Source of the DNA: Bacteroidota bacterium
Lineage (GTDB): Bacteria > Bacteroidota > Ignavibacteria > Ignavibacteriales > Melioribacteraceae
Assembly: GCA_021824635.1 (NCBI GenBank)
Contig: JAKAKD010000030.1
Span: 124,001 to 188,000, forward strand
Direction of reading: 5' to 3'
DNA: 64,000 nucleotides
Positions 12,638 through 61,170 of this stretch are shown one piece after another. The translations under genes and the position numbers were made by a program. How positions within the stretch are numbered: position 1 is the first letter of the stretch; each line of letters begins with the position of its first letter. Below the pieces are notes generated by a model. It did not search any database, had not been told where the DNA came from, and saw only the letters and a list, made by a program, of their open reading frames with translations.

Positions 12638-13705
12638 TTATCCGGAAACATTAGCGTTTTCTTCTGCTAACCAGAAAAGAACTTTCCTTTGAAATTTTTT
12701 GTGAATTATCGCATGCTCATCAATATTTATTGGAGTATGCAAAATATTATCTGCGTGCTCTGTAATAAGCGTTCGCAGATCGGTCAAATTTTTAATTGAG
12801 AATACTCTGTCGAGTAAAAATTTTACTCCACTATGACTTTTGAAATACCAGATAGAATGTTTTTTTGCTTTATCGAGAGCAATGAACTCTCCGAATTCGT
12901 TTTCTAAATTATTTATATGCTGTAAGACAGTTTTGCTAACAACAGAAGAATCCGGTTCGCCAGGATCAATTCCGGTTTCCATCAATGCGTTAAATCTTGA
13001 GAAGATAAAAGGATTTCCGAGAGCACCGCGCGCTATCATTGCGGAATCGCATCCGGTTGAATCTATCATCTCCTTTATATCTCCGGGCGAAAACATTGAG
13101 CCATTGCCAACAACCGGAATGGTTACTGTTTCTTTAACTTTTTTCAGCCAGGTCCAGTCTGCATTTGTATCATATTTATCTGCGCGCGTTCTTGCATGAA
13201 CAAAAATCAGCGAGGCGCCGTTATCTTGAATTGCTTTTGCATTATCAAAAACATTGATGCGCGATCTGTCTTTTCCTAAACGGATTTTAACCGAAATTGG
13301 AACGCCGTTAGAACCATCAACCATTTTACGGACAAGTTTACCGATAGTTTTAGGATCATCAAGAAGAGAAGCGCCCATATTTTTAGAACAAACTTTTTCT
13401 ACCGGGCAGCCGCAATTCAGATCAATTAAATCCGGTTTATGTTTTGAAATTTCTTTAGCGGCTTCATAAAGAATTTCCGGATCGTTGCCTAGAACTTGCA
13501 CGCCGATTGGTTTTTCCGAGCGGTTAAATGAGAAATGACGGAGCGTTTCAAAATTATTTTTGATAACTCCTTCTGCGCTTACCATTTGTGTAAATGTAAT
13601 TCCCGCACCCATTTCTTTACAAATTTTACGAAAAGAAGAATCGGTTACCTCCGCCATCGGGGCTAAAAATAATTTATTGCCAATATCGAGGTTGCCGACT
13701 TTCAT
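12638..13705 (-). CDS. dusB: tRNA-dihydrouridine synthase
   Basis: 355-residue FMN-dependent TIM barrel. LFLAPMAEVTDSSFR at the N-terminus contacts the flavin; the catalytic cysteine is Cys100 in NCGCPVEKV; the GNGSMFSPGDI and MIARGALGNPF motifs bind the FMN phosphate. The C-terminal helical domain recognises tRNA. The enzyme reduces uridines in the D-loop. The DusB subgroup call rests on overall length and on the DUS-next-to-RNA-processing context; another Dus subgroup is possible. It starts the dusB-rng pair. Confidence 0.93.
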   Translation of the reverse strand: MKVGNLDIGNKLFLAPMAEVTDSSFRKICKEMGAGITFTQMVSAEGVIKNNFETLRHFSFNRSEKPIGVQVLGNDPEILYEAAKEISKHKPDLIDLNCGCPVEKVCSKNMGASLLDDPKTIGKLVRKMVDGSNGVPISVKIRLGKDRSRINVFDNAKAIQDNGASLIFVHARTRADKYDTNADWTWLKKVKETVTIPVVGNGSMFSPGDIKEMIDSTGCDSAMIARGALGNPFIFSRFNALMETGIDPGEPDSSVVSKTVLQHINNLENEFGEFIALDKAKKHSIWYFKSHSGVKFLLDRVFSIKNLTDLRTLITEHADNILHTPINIDEHAIIHKKFQRKVLFWLAEENANVSG

Positions 13706-48679: not shown

Positions 48680-49042
48680 TTATTTCGATTGATTAATTGA
48701 TGAGGCGAGAATAGAAGAAATATCGTCAAGTTCGTCTAAAAACCATTTTACTTTTTCCGCTTTGGCGCGTTTGCTGTCTCGTACAAGCGCTAGCCAGAGT
48801 TTACTTTCGTTTGCGTATTTAAGTGAAGCAATAGTATAACTTGTTAATTCTCTTTTCGTTGAGACCGCCGAAGCTTCTATATAATTGCTAATAACGCTTG
48901 TTCCGCTGCCGAAAAGTTCATCAGCAATTCTTTGCGAAACATGATCTTTAGGAAGCGAGTCAACAAACTCTATTAGCTTAAGTGTGAAAAAATAGATTCG
49001 CTTTCTAAATTCGCCTCTCGATTTCGTAGTTTCAAGCTGCAT
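48680..49042 (-). CDS. Four-helix-bundle (S23/IVS-type) protein
   Basis: 120 residues, all-helical: RKRIYFFTLKLIEFVDSLPKD, then VSQRIADELFGSGTSVISNYIEASAVSTKRELTSYTIASLKYANESKLWLALVRDS. This is the pattern of the four-helix bundle proteins first described in 23S rRNA intervening sequences, also found as free genes and as Avd in retroelements. It fits tightly between hldD (4 bases) and the NUDIX gene (2 bases), unlike the second copy at 60039-60401, so it may be an established operon gene. Its function is unknown. Confidence 0.85.
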   Translation of the reverse strand: MQLETTKSRGEFRKRIYFFTLKLIEFVDSLPKDHVSQRIADELFGSGTSVISNYIEASAVSTKRELTSYTIASLKYANESKLWLALVRDSKRAKAEKVKWFLDELDDISSILASSINQSK

Positions 49043-49046
49043 TAGT

Positions 49047-50030
49047 TTACTCTCTGCTCATTCCGAAATAAATTTCTTTTAAGAGATAATTTTTTACGTA
49101 ATCCATAACACCTTCGCGGACGTTCATAATGTGTTTATCATAGCCGGCTGTTCTTATTTTTTTCAAATTCGCTTCTGTAAAGTATTGATATTTACCTCTT
49201 ATTACTTCCGGCATATCAACGAACTCTATATTCACGGGCTTTCCAACAGCATCAAACAACGCGGTAACCAATTCAACCCAGCTTTGCGCTTGACCTGTTC
49301 CAACATTATAAATTCCATTCTTATCTGTATGCTCAAGAAAATGCAACGTCATATCAACTGCATCTTTCACATAAACAAAATCGCGCCGCTGTTCCCCATC
49401 TTTAAATTCCGGTTTATATGATTTGAACAGTTGCACTTTCCCTGTATCGCGGACTTGCTCGAATGCTTTGTGAACAACGCTTCTCATTTCTTCTTTGTGA
49501 TATTCATTCGGACCATAGACATTGAAATATTTCAGACCGACGACTTTATCTATCAATCCGTTCCGTTTAATCCATATATCAAAAAGATGTTTTGAATAGC
49601 CATACATATTTAGAGGACGGAGTATATCCAGCTTAGACTCATCATCATTATAACCGTTGGAGCCATCGCCGTAAGTTGCAGCAGATGATGCATAAATAAA
49701 TCTAACTCCATTTTCCAGACAAAACTTTGCAAGTTCTTGCGAATAGTGAACGTTGTTATCCATCAAAAAATCCGCATCCTTTTCGGTTGTAGATGAACAA
49801 GCTCCGAGATGTATTACTGCGGTAACTTTAAAAGGAAATTTGCGCTGTAAAACTAAACCCATAAAATCATCTTTGTGAAAAAAATCCGCGAACTTTAGTC
49901 CGTTTAGGTTTTTCCACTTCTCTTCTTTGCCTAATTCATCAACAACAATAATTTTATCCTTACCCATTTGGTTTAATTTCCAGACAAGAGCACTGCCGAT
50001 AAATCCCGCGCCACCGGTAACAACTATCAT
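49047..50030 (-). CDS. hldD: ADP-glyceromanno-heptose 6-epimerase
   Basis: 327 residues, short-chain dehydrogenase fold. NADP-binding GGAGFIGS (6-13), Ser/Tyr/Lys catalysis with YASSAATYGDGSNGY and YGYSK near residue 142, and KYFNVYGPNEYHKEEMRS typical of HldD. It makes ADP-L-glycero-D-manno-heptose for the lipopolysaccharide inner core, which indicates an outer membrane with heptose-containing LPS. It is the first gene of the small operon with the four-helix-bundle, NUDIX and membrane protein genes. Confidence 0.95.
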   Translation of the reverse strand: MIVVTGGAGFIGSALVWKLNQMGKDKIIVVDELGKEEKWKNLNGLKFADFFHKDDFMGLVLQRKFPFKVTAVIHLGACSSTTEKDADFLMDNNVHYSQELAKFCLENGVRFIYASSAATYGDGSNGYNDDESKLDILRPLNMYGYSKHLFDIWIKRNGLIDKVVGLKYFNVYGPNEYHKEEMRSVVHKAFEQVRDTGKVQLFKSYKPEFKDGEQRRDFVYVKDAVDMTLHFLEHTDKNGIYNVGTGQAQSWVELVTALFDAVGKPVNIEFVDMPEVIRGKYQYFTEANLKKIRTAGYDKHIMNVREGVMDYVKNYLLKEIYFGMSRE

Positions 50031-55815: not shown

Positions 55816-56019
55816 ATGAGCAGCAAAGAAATAATTCAGAATGCATTGAAGCTGTCTCCTCAAGAAAAATTATTGATTGTTGACATCATTCTACAAAGTC
55901 TTGATGAACCCGATAAAAACCTTGAGACTATATGGGCTGAAGAGTCAGCAAAAAGATTGAAAGCGTTTCGCGAGGGGAAGATAAAAGGCATTCCTTACGA
56001 TGAATTGGACTTTGTATGA
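55816..56019 (+). CDS. Type II antitoxin, addiction-module component family
   Basis: 67 residues. The helix ALKLSPQEKLLIVDIILQSL (about 10-29) and the WAEESAKRLKAFREGKIKGI segment are the signature of the TIGR02574/RHH-less 'addiction module component' antitoxins paired with RelE/ParE toxins. GAGGT stands 6 bases before ATG. The stop overlaps the toxin start by four bases (ATGA), the usual coupling in toxin-antitoxin pairs. Confidence 0.9.
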   Translation: MSSKEIIQNALKLSPQEKLLIVDIILQSLDEPDKNLETIWAEESAKRLKAFREGKIKGIPYDELDFV

Positions 56020-56309
56020 AAATTATCTTTGCGGAAATTGCCGTTAAAGAATTATTGCAAGCAAGATCTTTTTATGAAGTTGAAGTAGCAGGATTGGGCG
56101 AAAAATTTTCGAATGAAATAAAAAATGCCTTAAAAAGAATTTCAAACTTTCCAACTGCCTGTCCCATCCTAAAGAATGAAATCAGAAAATGTGTTGTTAG
56201 AAAATTTCCGTATAATTTACTCTACTCGATTGAACAAGATTTTATTTTAATCATGGCAGTGGCACATCACCATAGAAAACCGTTTTACTGGTTAGACGAA
56301 AGCGAATAA
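56016..56309 (+). CDS. RelE/ParE family toxin
   Basis: 97 residues. The motif ELLQARSFYEVEVAGLGEKF (about 13-32) starts the fold; IKNALKRISNFP and RKCVVRKFPYNLLYSIEQDFILIMAVAHHHRKPFYW form the C-terminal sheet with the basic/aromatic residues typical of the family. It would inhibit translation (RelE-type) or gyrase (ParE-type); the sequence does not decide. Partner gene upstream overlaps it. Reading frame intact, so the module may be active. Confidence 0.9.
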   Translation: MKIIFAEIAVKELLQARSFYEVEVAGLGEKFSNEIKNALKRISNFPTACPILKNEIRKCVVRKFPYNLLYSIEQDFILIMAVAHHHRKPFYWLDESE

Positions 56310-58562: not shown

Positions 58563-60002
58563 ATGAGTTATCAGAACGGACTAAAAAATCTTTTTGAAAA
58601 CTGGTCGGGAGAGAAAATTTTAACTTTCTCTCCTCTTCCGGAATCCGGATCACCAAGAAAATATTTCAGAATTACCGGAGCGTTCAAAACCGCAATTGGA
58701 GTATTCAACACAAATAAGCAAGAGAACAAATCATTTATCTATCTCTCCAAACATTTTCTAAAAAACAGTTTAAATGTTCCTAAAATCTATAGAAGCGATC
58801 TACCTAATAACATTTATTTGATAGAAGATCTGGGCAACCAAACTATTTTTTCTTTTCTTGAAGAGAATAAGAATAAGAATAAAAATAAATTTAACGATGA
58901 GTTAGAAATTGTTTATAAGAAAACCATCGAACAACTTCCGCGTTTTCAAATTACAGCAGCAAAAAAATTAGATTACTCAAAATGTTATCCTGTTCCTAAA
59001 TTTGATAAGCAATCCATGTTGTGGGATTTGAATTATTTCAAATACTACTTTCTCAGACTTGCCGGAATCTCTTTCGATGAGCAGAAACTGGAAAACGATT
59101 TTAACACGCTAGCCGATTTTCTTCTTCAGGCTGACTGCAATTATTTTATGTACCGCGATTTCAATCCGCGTAATATTATGTTAAAAAATGGCGAGCCGTA
59201 TTTCATTGATTATCAAGGCGGACGCAAAGGCGCACTTCAGTATGATATAGCTTCGTTTTTATTCAGTTCTAAAGCTGACCTTTCATTTTCACTGAAAGAA
59301 GAGTTCCTCGAATATTACATCGCCAAGGCAAAAGGAATAAAACCATTTAACAGAAAGGAATTTCTGAAATATTACGATGGTTATGTCTTGATCCGGCTGC
59401 TTCAGATGTTTGGCGCTTATGGTTACCGCGGCAATTTTGAAGGCAAAGCTTATTTTTTGAAAAGCATTCCGTACGCAGTAAAAAATCTTGAATGGCTTTT
59501 AAAATATCACCGCCCGAAAATTAATACTTACGAATTATTTAATTCTCTTCGGCAAATAGTTAATTCGAGCGAACTAAAAAAATTCGATTGGAATTTTTCT
59601 GTTGACGGCAAATTAACTGTGAGGGTAAATAGCTTTTCATACCGCAAGAAAATTCCGGCGGATCTTTCCGGCAACGGCGGCGGATTTGTATTTGACTGCC
59701 GCGCAATTCCAAATCCCGGAAGAATTGATAAATACAAACCATTGAACGGCAAAGATAAACCGGTTCAAAATTTTCTTGATGATCAGCCGGAAGCACAAAC
59801 TTTCTTAAAAGGAACATACGATCTGGTTGATAAAAGTGTTGAGAATTATATAAATCGTAAATGGACAGATTTGATGGTAAGCTACGGATGCACCGGCGGT
59901 CAACACCGCTCAGTTTATTGTGCGGAAAAGCTGGCGGAACATCTTGCTTCAAAGTATAAGATTGGTATAAAACTAATTCATACAAATCTGGGAAAGAAGT
60001 AA
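58563..60002 (+). CDS. AmgK-like sugar kinase fused to RapZ C-terminal domain
   Basis: 479 residues in two parts. Residues about 1-330 are an aminoglycoside-phosphotransferase-type kinase: nucleotide loop GSPRKYFRI, catalytic YRDFNPRNIM (about 197-206, Tyr where others have His) and FIDYQGGRKGALQYDIASFL. This is the COG3178 branch that includes AmgK, the anomeric MurNAc/GlcNAc kinase. Residues about 350-479 match the C-terminal half of RapZ (FDCRAIPNPG, GCTGGQHRSVYCAEKLAEHL) without the N-terminal P-loop ATPase. In E. coli that half binds glucosamine-6-phosphate and RNA. Downstream lies a MurU-like nucleotidyltransferase. Hence a role in peptidoglycan sugar salvage is likely. Confidence 0.85.
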   Translation: MSYQNGLKNLFENWSGEKILTFSPLPESGSPRKYFRITGAFKTAIGVFNTNKQENKSFIYLSKHFLKNSLNVPKIYRSDLPNNIYLIEDLGNQTIFSFLEENKNKNKNKFNDELEIVYKKTIEQLPRFQITAAKKLDYSKCYPVPKFDKQSMLWDLNYFKYYFLRLAGISFDEQKLENDFNTLADFLLQADCNYFMYRDFNPRNIMLKNGEPYFIDYQGGRKGALQYDIASFLFSSKADLSFSLKEEFLEYYIAKAKGIKPFNRKEFLKYYDGYVLIRLLQMFGAYGYRGNFEGKAYFLKSIPYAVKNLEWLLKYHRPKINTYELFNSLRQIVNSSELKKFDWNFSVDGKLTVRVNSFSYRKKIPADLSGNGGGFVFDCRAIPNPGRIDKYKPLNGKDKPVQNFLDDQPEAQTFLKGTYDLVDKSVENYINRKWTDLMVSYGCTGGQHRSVYCAEKLAEHLASKYKIGIKLIHTNLGKK

Positions 60003-60026
60003 CTTAGTTACTAAGTGCCTAAGAGA
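60002..60026 (+). repeat. Left CTNAG octamer repeats beside the four-helix-bundle gene
   Basis: Three successive 8-base units centred on CTTAG, CTAAG and CTAAG, starting in the stop codon of the kinase gene. The first two form a short palindrome (60002-60016). The segment 60007-60023 is complementary to 60420-60436 at 13 of 17 positions. Confidence 0.65.
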
Positions 60027-60038
60027 GGGAATGACCTT

Positions 60039-60401
60039 TTGGCAAAAACATTTCGTGAATTAATAGTCTGGCAAAAATCGATTACATTGGTAACTCATAT
60101 TTATGAGGTAACTTCAAATTTTCCCAAAGAAGAGATTTATGGTATTACCAGTCAATTGAGAAGAGCTGCAATATCAATCCCTAGTAATATCGCTGAAGGT
60201 TTCGGGAGAAATTCAAAAAAAGAGTTTGTAAGATTTCTAAGAATTACATTCGGCTCCATTTTTGAGTTGCAGACTCAGCTAGAAATTTCAAACAATCTAA
60301 AATTTCTATCATTGAATGATTTTAATAAAATTTATGATTCTACTCGTGAAATTGAGGCGATGCTTGCTTCGCTAATCAAAAAAATTAACTCAAAATCATA
60401 A
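60039..60401 (+). CDS. Four-helix-bundle (S23/IVS-type) protein, cassette-like
   Basis: 120 residues from TTG at 60039, chosen because GAGAGGGA precedes it and the family normally begins just before TFRELIVWQKS; an upstream GTG at 60015 would translate the repeat. Signature residues RELIVWQKSITLV, GITSQLRRAAISIPSNIAEGFGRNSKKEFVRFLRI and an E-rich last helix identify it. It is the classic subtype found in 23S rRNA intervening sequences. Its gene separates the kinase/RapZ fusion from the nucleotidyltransferase and is flanked on each side by octameric CTNAG repeats whose outer ends are complementary. Function of the protein is unknown. Confidence 0.9.
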   Translation: MAKTFRELIVWQKSITLVTHIYEVTSNFPKEEIYGITSQLRRAAISIPSNIAEGFGRNSKKEFVRFLRITFGSIFELQTQLEISNNLKFLSLNDFNKIYDSTREIEAMLASLIKKINSKS

Positions 60402-60402
60402 T

Positions 60403-60436
60403 GCTAAGTTACTCAGAAACTTAGGAACTCAGGTAC
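60403..60436 (+). repeat. Right CTNAG octamer repeats beside the four-helix-bundle gene
   Basis: Four successive 8-base units with CTAAG, CTCAG, CTTAG and CTCAG cores. CTAAGTT (60404-60410) pairs with AACTTAG (60418-60424). The last 17 bases are the inverted partner of the left repeat. Confidence 0.65.
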
Positions 60437-60441
60437 TTTTC

Positions 60442-61170
60442 ATGAGAGCATTAATACTAGCCGCCGGACTCGGTACACGTTTACAACCGATAACAAACTT
60501 AAAACCGAAAGCGCTTGTCGAAATAAATGGAATTACACTTCTTGAATTTACAATCAGACGGTTAATCAAATCCGGGTTCGATCATATCATCATAAATGTT
60601 CACCACTTTGCAGATCAGATAATAAATTTTCTTAATGAGAAAAATAACTTCGGAATTGAGATTGAAATTTCGGATGAGCGGGATTTACTTCTTGATACCG
60701 GCGGCGGATTTAAAAAAGCAAGCTGGTTTTTTGATGACGGGAAACCATTTCTCATTCATAATGTTGATATTCTTTCCGACTTTGATATTACTCAGTTACA
60801 CGATTTTCATCTCAATTCAAATTCTATTGCTACTCTTGCCGTTCAAGAAAGAAAATCATCCCGCTATTTTTTGTTTGACGAAGATAAATATTTGTGCGGC
60901 TGGGAGAATGTGAAGACAAACAAACGCAAAATAGCCCGGCAGCCCAAGGGGAAATTGGCTCAACTTGCATTTAGCGGAATTCATATAGCTAATCCTTCGA
61001 TTTTCAAACTCATGCCGCCAGAAAAAGTTTTTTCTATAGTTGATTTCTACTTATCAATCGCATCTCAAAATCGAATATCTTATTTTGATCATAGCAATTC
61101 ACTTTTCATAGATTTGGGTAAAACAGAAAATTTAACCGAAGCAGAAAAAATCTTTAATAAAAATTTCTAA
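60442..61170 (+). CDS. MurU-like sugar-1-phosphate nucleotidyltransferase
   Basis: 242 residues. Nucleotide-binding signature MRALILAAGLGTRLQPIT and LKPKALVEINGITLLEF at the N-terminus, LLDTGGGFKKA and HNVDILSDFD for the sugar phosphate and metal site. Length and the GTRLQPIT/KPKAL motifs fit the MurU/RmlA-like nucleotidyltransferases. Next to an AmgK-like kinase it probably makes UDP-MurNAc (or another NDP-sugar) from sugar-1-phosphate, bypassing de novo synthesis. The ATG lies only five bases after the repeat, without a clear ribosome site. Confidence 0.85.
   Translation: MRALILAAGLGTRLQPITNLKPKALVEINGITLLEFTIRRLIKSGFDHIIINVHHFADQIINFLNEKNNFGIEIEISDERDLLLDTGGGFKKASWFFDDGKPFLIHNVDILSDFDITQLHDFHLNSNSIATLAVQERKSSRYFLFDEDKYLCGWENVKTNKRKIARQPKGKLAQLAFSGIHIANPSIFKLMPPEKVFSIVDFYLSIASQNRISYFDHSNSLFIDLGKTENLTEAEKIFNKNF

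Follow-up and report, generated by a model that had tools for sequence, protein, structure and literature searches.

We know of no established function for IVP (S23) proteins, nor of a described origin for several families of 7–8 base bacterial repeats. An S23/IVP open reading frame is carried by the rRNA intervening sequence (IVS) of Coxiella, which the published account gives as 428 nt long and calls selfish, and an IVP homologue, XCC0516 (PDB 2gsc), is described there as a homopentamer (PMC4990558). Short tandem units are also described in filamentous cyanobacteria, where the STRR heptamers, 7-bp units capable of forming hairpins, occur for instance between hupS and hupL and are given as of unknown function (PMC2670836). 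In the relevant parts of the papers on Geobacter (PMC2700814), Beggiatoaceae (PMC4679880) and Nostoc (PMC2670836), regulatory or transcript-stability roles are proposed for such arrays.

The locus studied here lies in a stretch of 64,000 nucleotides of Bacteroidota DNA, analysed as a whole and called the window below. An IVP gene is enclosed by two arrays of CTNAG octamers and stands between two protein-coding genes. The features are:

58563..60002, + strand, upstream host gene, AmgK-like kinase fused to a RapZ C-terminal domain; its stop codon abuts the left arm
59998..60441, + strand, whole cassette, from the kinase stop codon to the ATG of the MurU-like gene
60003..60023, + strand, left arm, three CTNAG octamers (CTTAGTTA CTAAGTGC CTAAG)
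60039..60401, + strand, four-helix-bundle gene, 23S_rRNA_IVP, PF05635 / TIGR02436, by profile matches
60404..60432, + strand, right arm, four CTNAG octamers (CTAAGTTA CTCAGAAA CTTAGGAA CTCAG)
60442..61170, + strand, downstream host gene, MurU-like nucleotidyltransferase, by profile matches
48680..49051, - strand, vertically inherited PF05635 homologue without arms (E 3.6e-9), used as an internal control

The cassette is not in an rRNA gene, and no rRNA family match is found in the 64-kb window. The octamers start at 60003, 60011 and 60019 on the left and at 60404, 60412, 60420 and 60428 on the right, so that the three and four units reported around an S23/IVS-type gene in the initial annotation are present, and the gene belongs to PF05635. 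Its product matches PF05635 with E 1.2e-40 (138.4 bits against a cut-off of 33.8), TIGR02436 with E 2e-39 and PDB 2gsc with E 1.8e-22. Translation likely starts at TTG 60039; GTG 60015 is also open. The pattern CTNAGNNNCTNAGNNNCTNAG has 3 matches in the 64-kb window, all at the cassette, against 0.00 in 100 shuffles. A count by hand confirmed that the outer ends pair at 13 of 17 bases, as had been reported (60003–60019 against the complement of 60416–60432). Taken alone this pairing is unremarkable: if translation began at GTG 60015, which lies within the arm, the inverted flanks would score 12, rank 4 (tied) among the 66 window ORFs of at least 100 aa. For a start near 60042 they score 13 or more and so exceed the 95th percentile of control windows (12). 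Another ORF, 12840–13196, scores 14; it has no Pfam match and was taken as chance. An Rfam family was dropped as an identity, since none is found in 11 hairpin loci and the window holds only a tRNA match. At 55816–56309 the window also has two small ORFs that we take to resemble a RelB/RelE-type toxin-antitoxin pair. The fusion of an AmgK-like kinase with RapZ_C has matches in 25 of 57 family genomes, a few of them without the C-terminal part; with the MurU-like gene it possibly forms a pair for the recycling of amino sugars that has its own RapZ domain.

Comparison of orthologous junctions demonstrates that the unit is present in some relatives and missing from others. In a search for empty sites, the kinase–MurU junction is closed or within ~21 bases in 17 of 19 readable family relatives, which agrees with the earlier view of one operon split by a cassette. 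The two remaining junctions hold a short gene-free CTNAG array (L029, genome G046) and a different octamer hairpin (L028, G031). The gene is present at this locus in G000, G061 and G058. In G064, whose flanks are 82–83% identical, only two CTNAG units are left, and the alignment with the window breaks at ~59996 and ~60420 with 10 bases between; no repeat was recognised in G062 at this locus. Related genes with CTNAG units next to them occur at other loci, L053 in G036:C9 and L067 in G063. At the L021 locus the gene is found in G000, G063 and G050, the site is cleanly empty in G064 and G057, and G001 has a decayed copy. Similarly, at the L075 locus G064 has the gene, and in G036 that position is taken by a hairpin of the same word without the gene; the site is empty in G050, G063 and G059 and occupied by other inserts in G000, G001, G057 and G061. 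Three relatives (L313, L314 and L315) have at this junction a gene that presumably resembles one for an ORF6N/KilA-N protein, in place of the hairpins or IVP cassette of other genomes. Thus three loci have empty, solo-array or hairpin-only sites among the sequences aligned.

The initial annotation had suggested a mobile cassette. This is supported in part, in that gene and arms appear and disappear as one, as seen from G064, the family junctions and other loci; the part tied to CTNAG is not, this being only one of many words. We infer that the cassette is mobile from presence and absence between species, no transposition event having been seen. Most copies within the genus look vertically inherited by flank comparison and tree. 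Inspection of the sequenced junctions by eye revealed no target-site duplication, the boundaries being blurred by the repeats, and no transposase or other mobility enzyme was identified, PF05635 being the sole cassette gene.

The source genome (3.06 Mb) has 16 PF05635 matches, one of them a fragment below the cut-off. All 12 congeneric genomes together gave 112 matches, from which 103 places were kept; 4 matches (mostly fragments), L026 and places with short or duplicate flanks were left out. Most of the other copies are flanked by degenerate tandem 7–8mers of their own, the left arm complementary to the right. The arms were scored in 130-base flanks with stiffer gap costs against same-locus controls (578 control pairs), a version that replaced, after the data had been seen, a test with 250-base flanks and a cross-pair null. 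Excluding the vertical group, inverted arms exceed the 95th percentile in 74 of 92 genus copies and the 99th in 70, orthologous copies in these counts not being independent observations, and 18 copies fail. The control pairs pass in 16 and 4 of 578 cases at the two levels. Against a harsher null, built from flanks of other copies, which share words, fewer pass: 55 of 103 at the 95th percentile and 31 at the 99th. The base identity of genus arms against controls is raised at lag 7 (0.405 vs 0.259), lag 8 (0.320 vs 0.259) and lag 14 (0.377 vs 0.268); a lag of 7 is the strongest repeat period across the class, and the unit of the window is 8 bp. The sequences compared thus show an architecture of one small gene inside two inverted arrays of a few degenerate 7–8 base words. 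One locus, L120 (G064:C2:266700-271200), has four full or partial PF05635 matches inside 4.5 kb.

Arms are not a trait of any small dispersed gene, as ParE toxin genes of the same genomes bear them in 1 of 23 loci tested (7 of 30 were skipped for length) and the vertically inherited PF05635 homologues in 0 of 11. The latter comprise the homologue at 48680–49051 (L025) and 10 orthologues, which share orthologous flanks and form a single clade with support 100/100. Their location is conserved in 11 of 12 congeneric genomes; none was found in the remaining one, G059, which is 66% complete. This group was named after the first arm test had shown it armless, and was later backed by flank orthology and the tree. 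Its identity at lag 7 is also raised (0.341), because the flanks share ancestry. The armless homologue looks domesticated.

CTNAG is not one fixed repeat family, as other copies bear other words. Among non-orthologous loci with at least 60% protein identity (15 pairs), the mean word score is 15.3 and 11 of 15 pairs reach 13 or more, whereas pairs below 50% identity average 6.4–6.7, a contrast equalled in 0 of 5000 permutations. The 60% line was drawn after a correlation over the whole identity range had been run, which found none between word and protein similarity (Spearman 0.009; Mantel 800 of 2000). The host genome does not set the words: below 50% identity, pairs within a genome score 6.46 and pairs between genomes 6.59. 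For orthologous pairs of less than 75% identity at a single locus, the match between the two arms within an element is closer than that between arms of different elements in 27 of 31 cases. The tree, with few columns and many forks unresolved, groups rows mostly by locus (7 of 8 locE rows 99/94; locC 99/91). It does not favor independent insertion as the cause of differing words at one locus for most rows; this cause is kept for L123. The clade of the window gene (support 90/92) takes in L053 and L067 from other loci. These comparisons demonstrate that different gene clades bear different words and that both arms differ together between orthologous copies.

The architecture reaches far beyond the genus. 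A contig scan with a narrow alignment confirmed at least 582 relatives, of which the best 80 were kept; these 80 come from Bacteroidota, KSB1, Nitrospirae, SAR324, Planctomycetes, Acidobacteria, Desulfobacteria, Clostridia, candidate phyla and others. Among 78 of them (L235 and L244 being too short for the test), arms exceed the 95th percentile in 61 and the 99th in 53 (440 controls), and 17 fail. On plasmids a PF05635 protein occurs in 31 records, mostly cyanobacterial. In 14 hand-chosen records, all cyanobacterial, heptamer arms score at least 15 in 8 loci, two of which are an identical unit on two plasmids, against at most 12 in 28 controls; the arm words include TAGGGAG and ACAGGGA. The other six fail, among them L268, whose long arrays are direct rather than inverted. 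In two different cyanobacteria (L265 and L268) the PF05635 gene lies between cas6 and cas4, the words being different, and a type I-D cas1d is annotated on the L265 plasmid.

A second gene family has arms of the same kind. Of 28 family genomes, 23 have GxxExxY (PF13366, PDDEXK_3) genes. Among the 28 loci tested out of 30 (L362 and L364 were left out), arms exceed the 95th percentile in 21 and the 99th in 19 (163 controls). Their words are, for instance, CACAGAGA, ACACGGAT and GCAAAG, and the arms of one gene (L339, in G020) are of the CTTAG type. Compared by eye, the words of IVP and GxxExxY genes are mostly different; some IVP words (CACAAAGG in L180 and L194) resemble GxxExxY words.

Arrays also occur without a gene. 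The initial annotation had named repeats widespread without the gene as evidence against its cassette, and CTNAG arrays do occur gene-free. The pattern CTNAGNNNCTNAGNNNCTNAG has 10 overlapping matches at four places in the whole source genome (0 for the reversed control pattern), three of these places being on contigs without any PF05635 match, and a CTNAG triple is found in 12 of 54 family genomes. Among 23 CTNAG sites hand-picked from the family list, with gene content judged by a crude motif test, one has a GxxExxY gene, none has the IVP motif and 22 are without a recognised gene. A fold of -32 kcal/mol or lower is predicted in 11 of these 22, a count without shuffled control, and the rest are weaker or single arms. 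Since the same-word hairpin at the L075 locus occupies exactly the gene site of a relative, the gene-free CTNAG arrays may be read as mini-elements. A second word, as an AATTGNG triple, has 39 overlapping matches spread over 10 of the 12 genomes of the genus, whereas its reversed pattern has 0; in the 20 loci viewed they lie mostly on one strand, and most of these loci are single arrays, not hairpins.

The elements lie in the sense orientation between co-directional genes. For the IVP gene and co-directional neighbors, the sense to antisense ratio is 75:0 among the 92 genus copies and 63:2 among the best 80 relatives, ORF calls being crude in both; for GxxExxY genes it is 27:1 (28 loci). Read inward, the arms are G-rich in 57 of 61 and 57 of 68 cases in two sets. 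Arm mismatches show no wobble bias, with 64 wobble-type against 97 non-wobble transitions (opposite direction, p 0.011) in one count and 89 against 74 in the other, and the RNA fold of the window unit barely beats shuffles (z -1.65; 8 of 100 shuffles are as good). Selection for RNA pairing through G-U wobble thus gave no signal and has no support from either measure; since the mismatches are not biased to wobble, RNA pairing need not be what keeps the arms alike.

On balance it is probable that the cassette is an IVS-like selfish element of a widespread class that sits inside operons, with a protein that acts on its own arms. The IVP protein would bind the word arrays of its own unit, either folded as a hairpin or single-stranded, and would assist host enzymes in copying that unit into further gene junctions. 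Copies that consist of the hairpin alone would be non-autonomous derivatives. Slippage within arms, combined with template switching between complementary arms, could make both arms drift together, so that lineages would end with private words. The sense transcript of the operon may supply the protein without a promoter of its own, and RNase III may cleave the stem, by analogy with rRNA IVSs. Alternatively, the arrays could be made by the host, as slippage or foldback products or as protein-bound arrays that regulate adjacent genes, with the IVP gene a passenger or regulator that tends to lie inside. Arrays do outnumber CTNAG-armed genes (12 of 54 family genomes; 22 of 23 picked sites without a recognised gene), AATTGNG triples are present in 10 of 12 genus genomes and lie mostly on one strand in the 20 loci viewed, and such a view accords with the roles proposed in parts of the Geobacter, Beggiatoaceae and Nostoc papers. 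Nevertheless, word sharing tracks the gene clade and not the genome, the vertical homologues and ParE genes lack arms, and gene and arms are missing together at empty sites; we consider a host origin unlikely.

The extreme sense bias (75:0, 63:2 and 27:1) would also be expected if the unit were copied as a sense RNA, an IVS-like hairpin, and reverse-transcribed into transcribed junctions. PF05635 is related to Avd, a partner of reverse transcriptase according to the part of the literature consulted (bAvd E 8.8e-7, below cut-off; PMC10053308). However, neither of the two flanking genes, which are the genes considered here, is a reverse transcriptase, the mismatches have no wobble bias, and a need for read-through expression could by itself yield the sense bias, which makes this route quite improbable. 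Movement at the DNA level, as MITE-like elements that a nuclease, of the host or of the GxxExxY type, mobilizes in trans while IVP is mere cargo, would account for hairpin-only copies, for the like arms of GxxExxY genes (21 of 28) and for the resemblance of CACAAAGG in L180 and L194 to GxxExxY words. We hold it very improbable, as most IVP and GxxExxY words differ by eye and IVP word sharing tracks the IVP clade. If arms and gene form one selfish element, as we favor, the function of IVP and the origin of the repeats become testable by the same experiments. It is unusual for the word of an inverted array to differ on both sides together around an orthologous gene, and such an array would make a model for the concerted evolution of recognition sequences.

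With the Coxiella IVS the cassette shares, as far as that account describes it, the PF05635 protein, complementary ends around the gene and the size (428 nt against ~444 here). It differs in lying between protein genes and in arms made of tandem degenerate words that vary by copy (PMC4990558). The related four-helix bundle is also seen in the Avd protein of DGRs, in the portion of the source that covers it (PMC10053308). In the window the match to NCBIfam DivGenRetAVD is 24.4 bits against a cut-off of 80, and the bAvd match is the one given above; the flanking genes encode a kinase-RapZ_C and a MurU-like protein, not reverse transcriptases. RAYTs are defined by a Y1 tyrosine transposase. The cassette gene is PF05635 with no Y1 transposase, its arms are tandem arrays, and their word differs between gene clades as well as within a locus. 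The likeness to REP/REPIN and RAYT, as these are described in the sections concerned, is that of dispersed hairpin repeats with and without a cognate gene (PMC8266576, PMC3116915).

Among short repeats, STRRs resemble the heptamer arms of IVP genes on cyanobacterial plasmids, compared by description only; the passage on them has no enclosed gene, and the window unit is an octamer from another bacterium (PMC2670836). The octamer and heptamer pairs of Geobacter metallireducens (PMC2700814) and the GGGAATC pairs of Xanthomonas (PMC4692102) are likewise described as short degenerate tandem intergenic words in inverted pairs, and the TAACTGA repeats (PMC4679880) as short degenerate tandem words between genes. 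The Xanthomonas pairs are, in that description, convergent, as are the inward G-rich arms here (PMC4692102). All three were compared by description only, and where their authors discuss them, unlike here, the subject is regulation or G-quadruplexes. The terms 'S23' and 'four helix' are absent from the main texts of PMC4692102 and PMC4679880, and we found no open-access paper that connects such arrays to IVP or GxxExxY genes. We hold tentatively, as somewhat short of an even chance, that at least two unrelated small gene families, PF05635 and the PD-(D/E)XK-like GxxExxY family, form one cassette class, in which the word array serves as recognition sequence and is rewritten on both arms together, each lineage coming to have a private word. 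Gene-free remnants of this class would then give rise to the orphan STRR, TAACTGA, GGGAATC and Geobacter repeats of diverse bacteria, a unification that we offer as a proposal. Our study suggests that such cassettes are selfish DNA of a kind that has drawn little attention, from which several repeat families that lack an explanation may derive.
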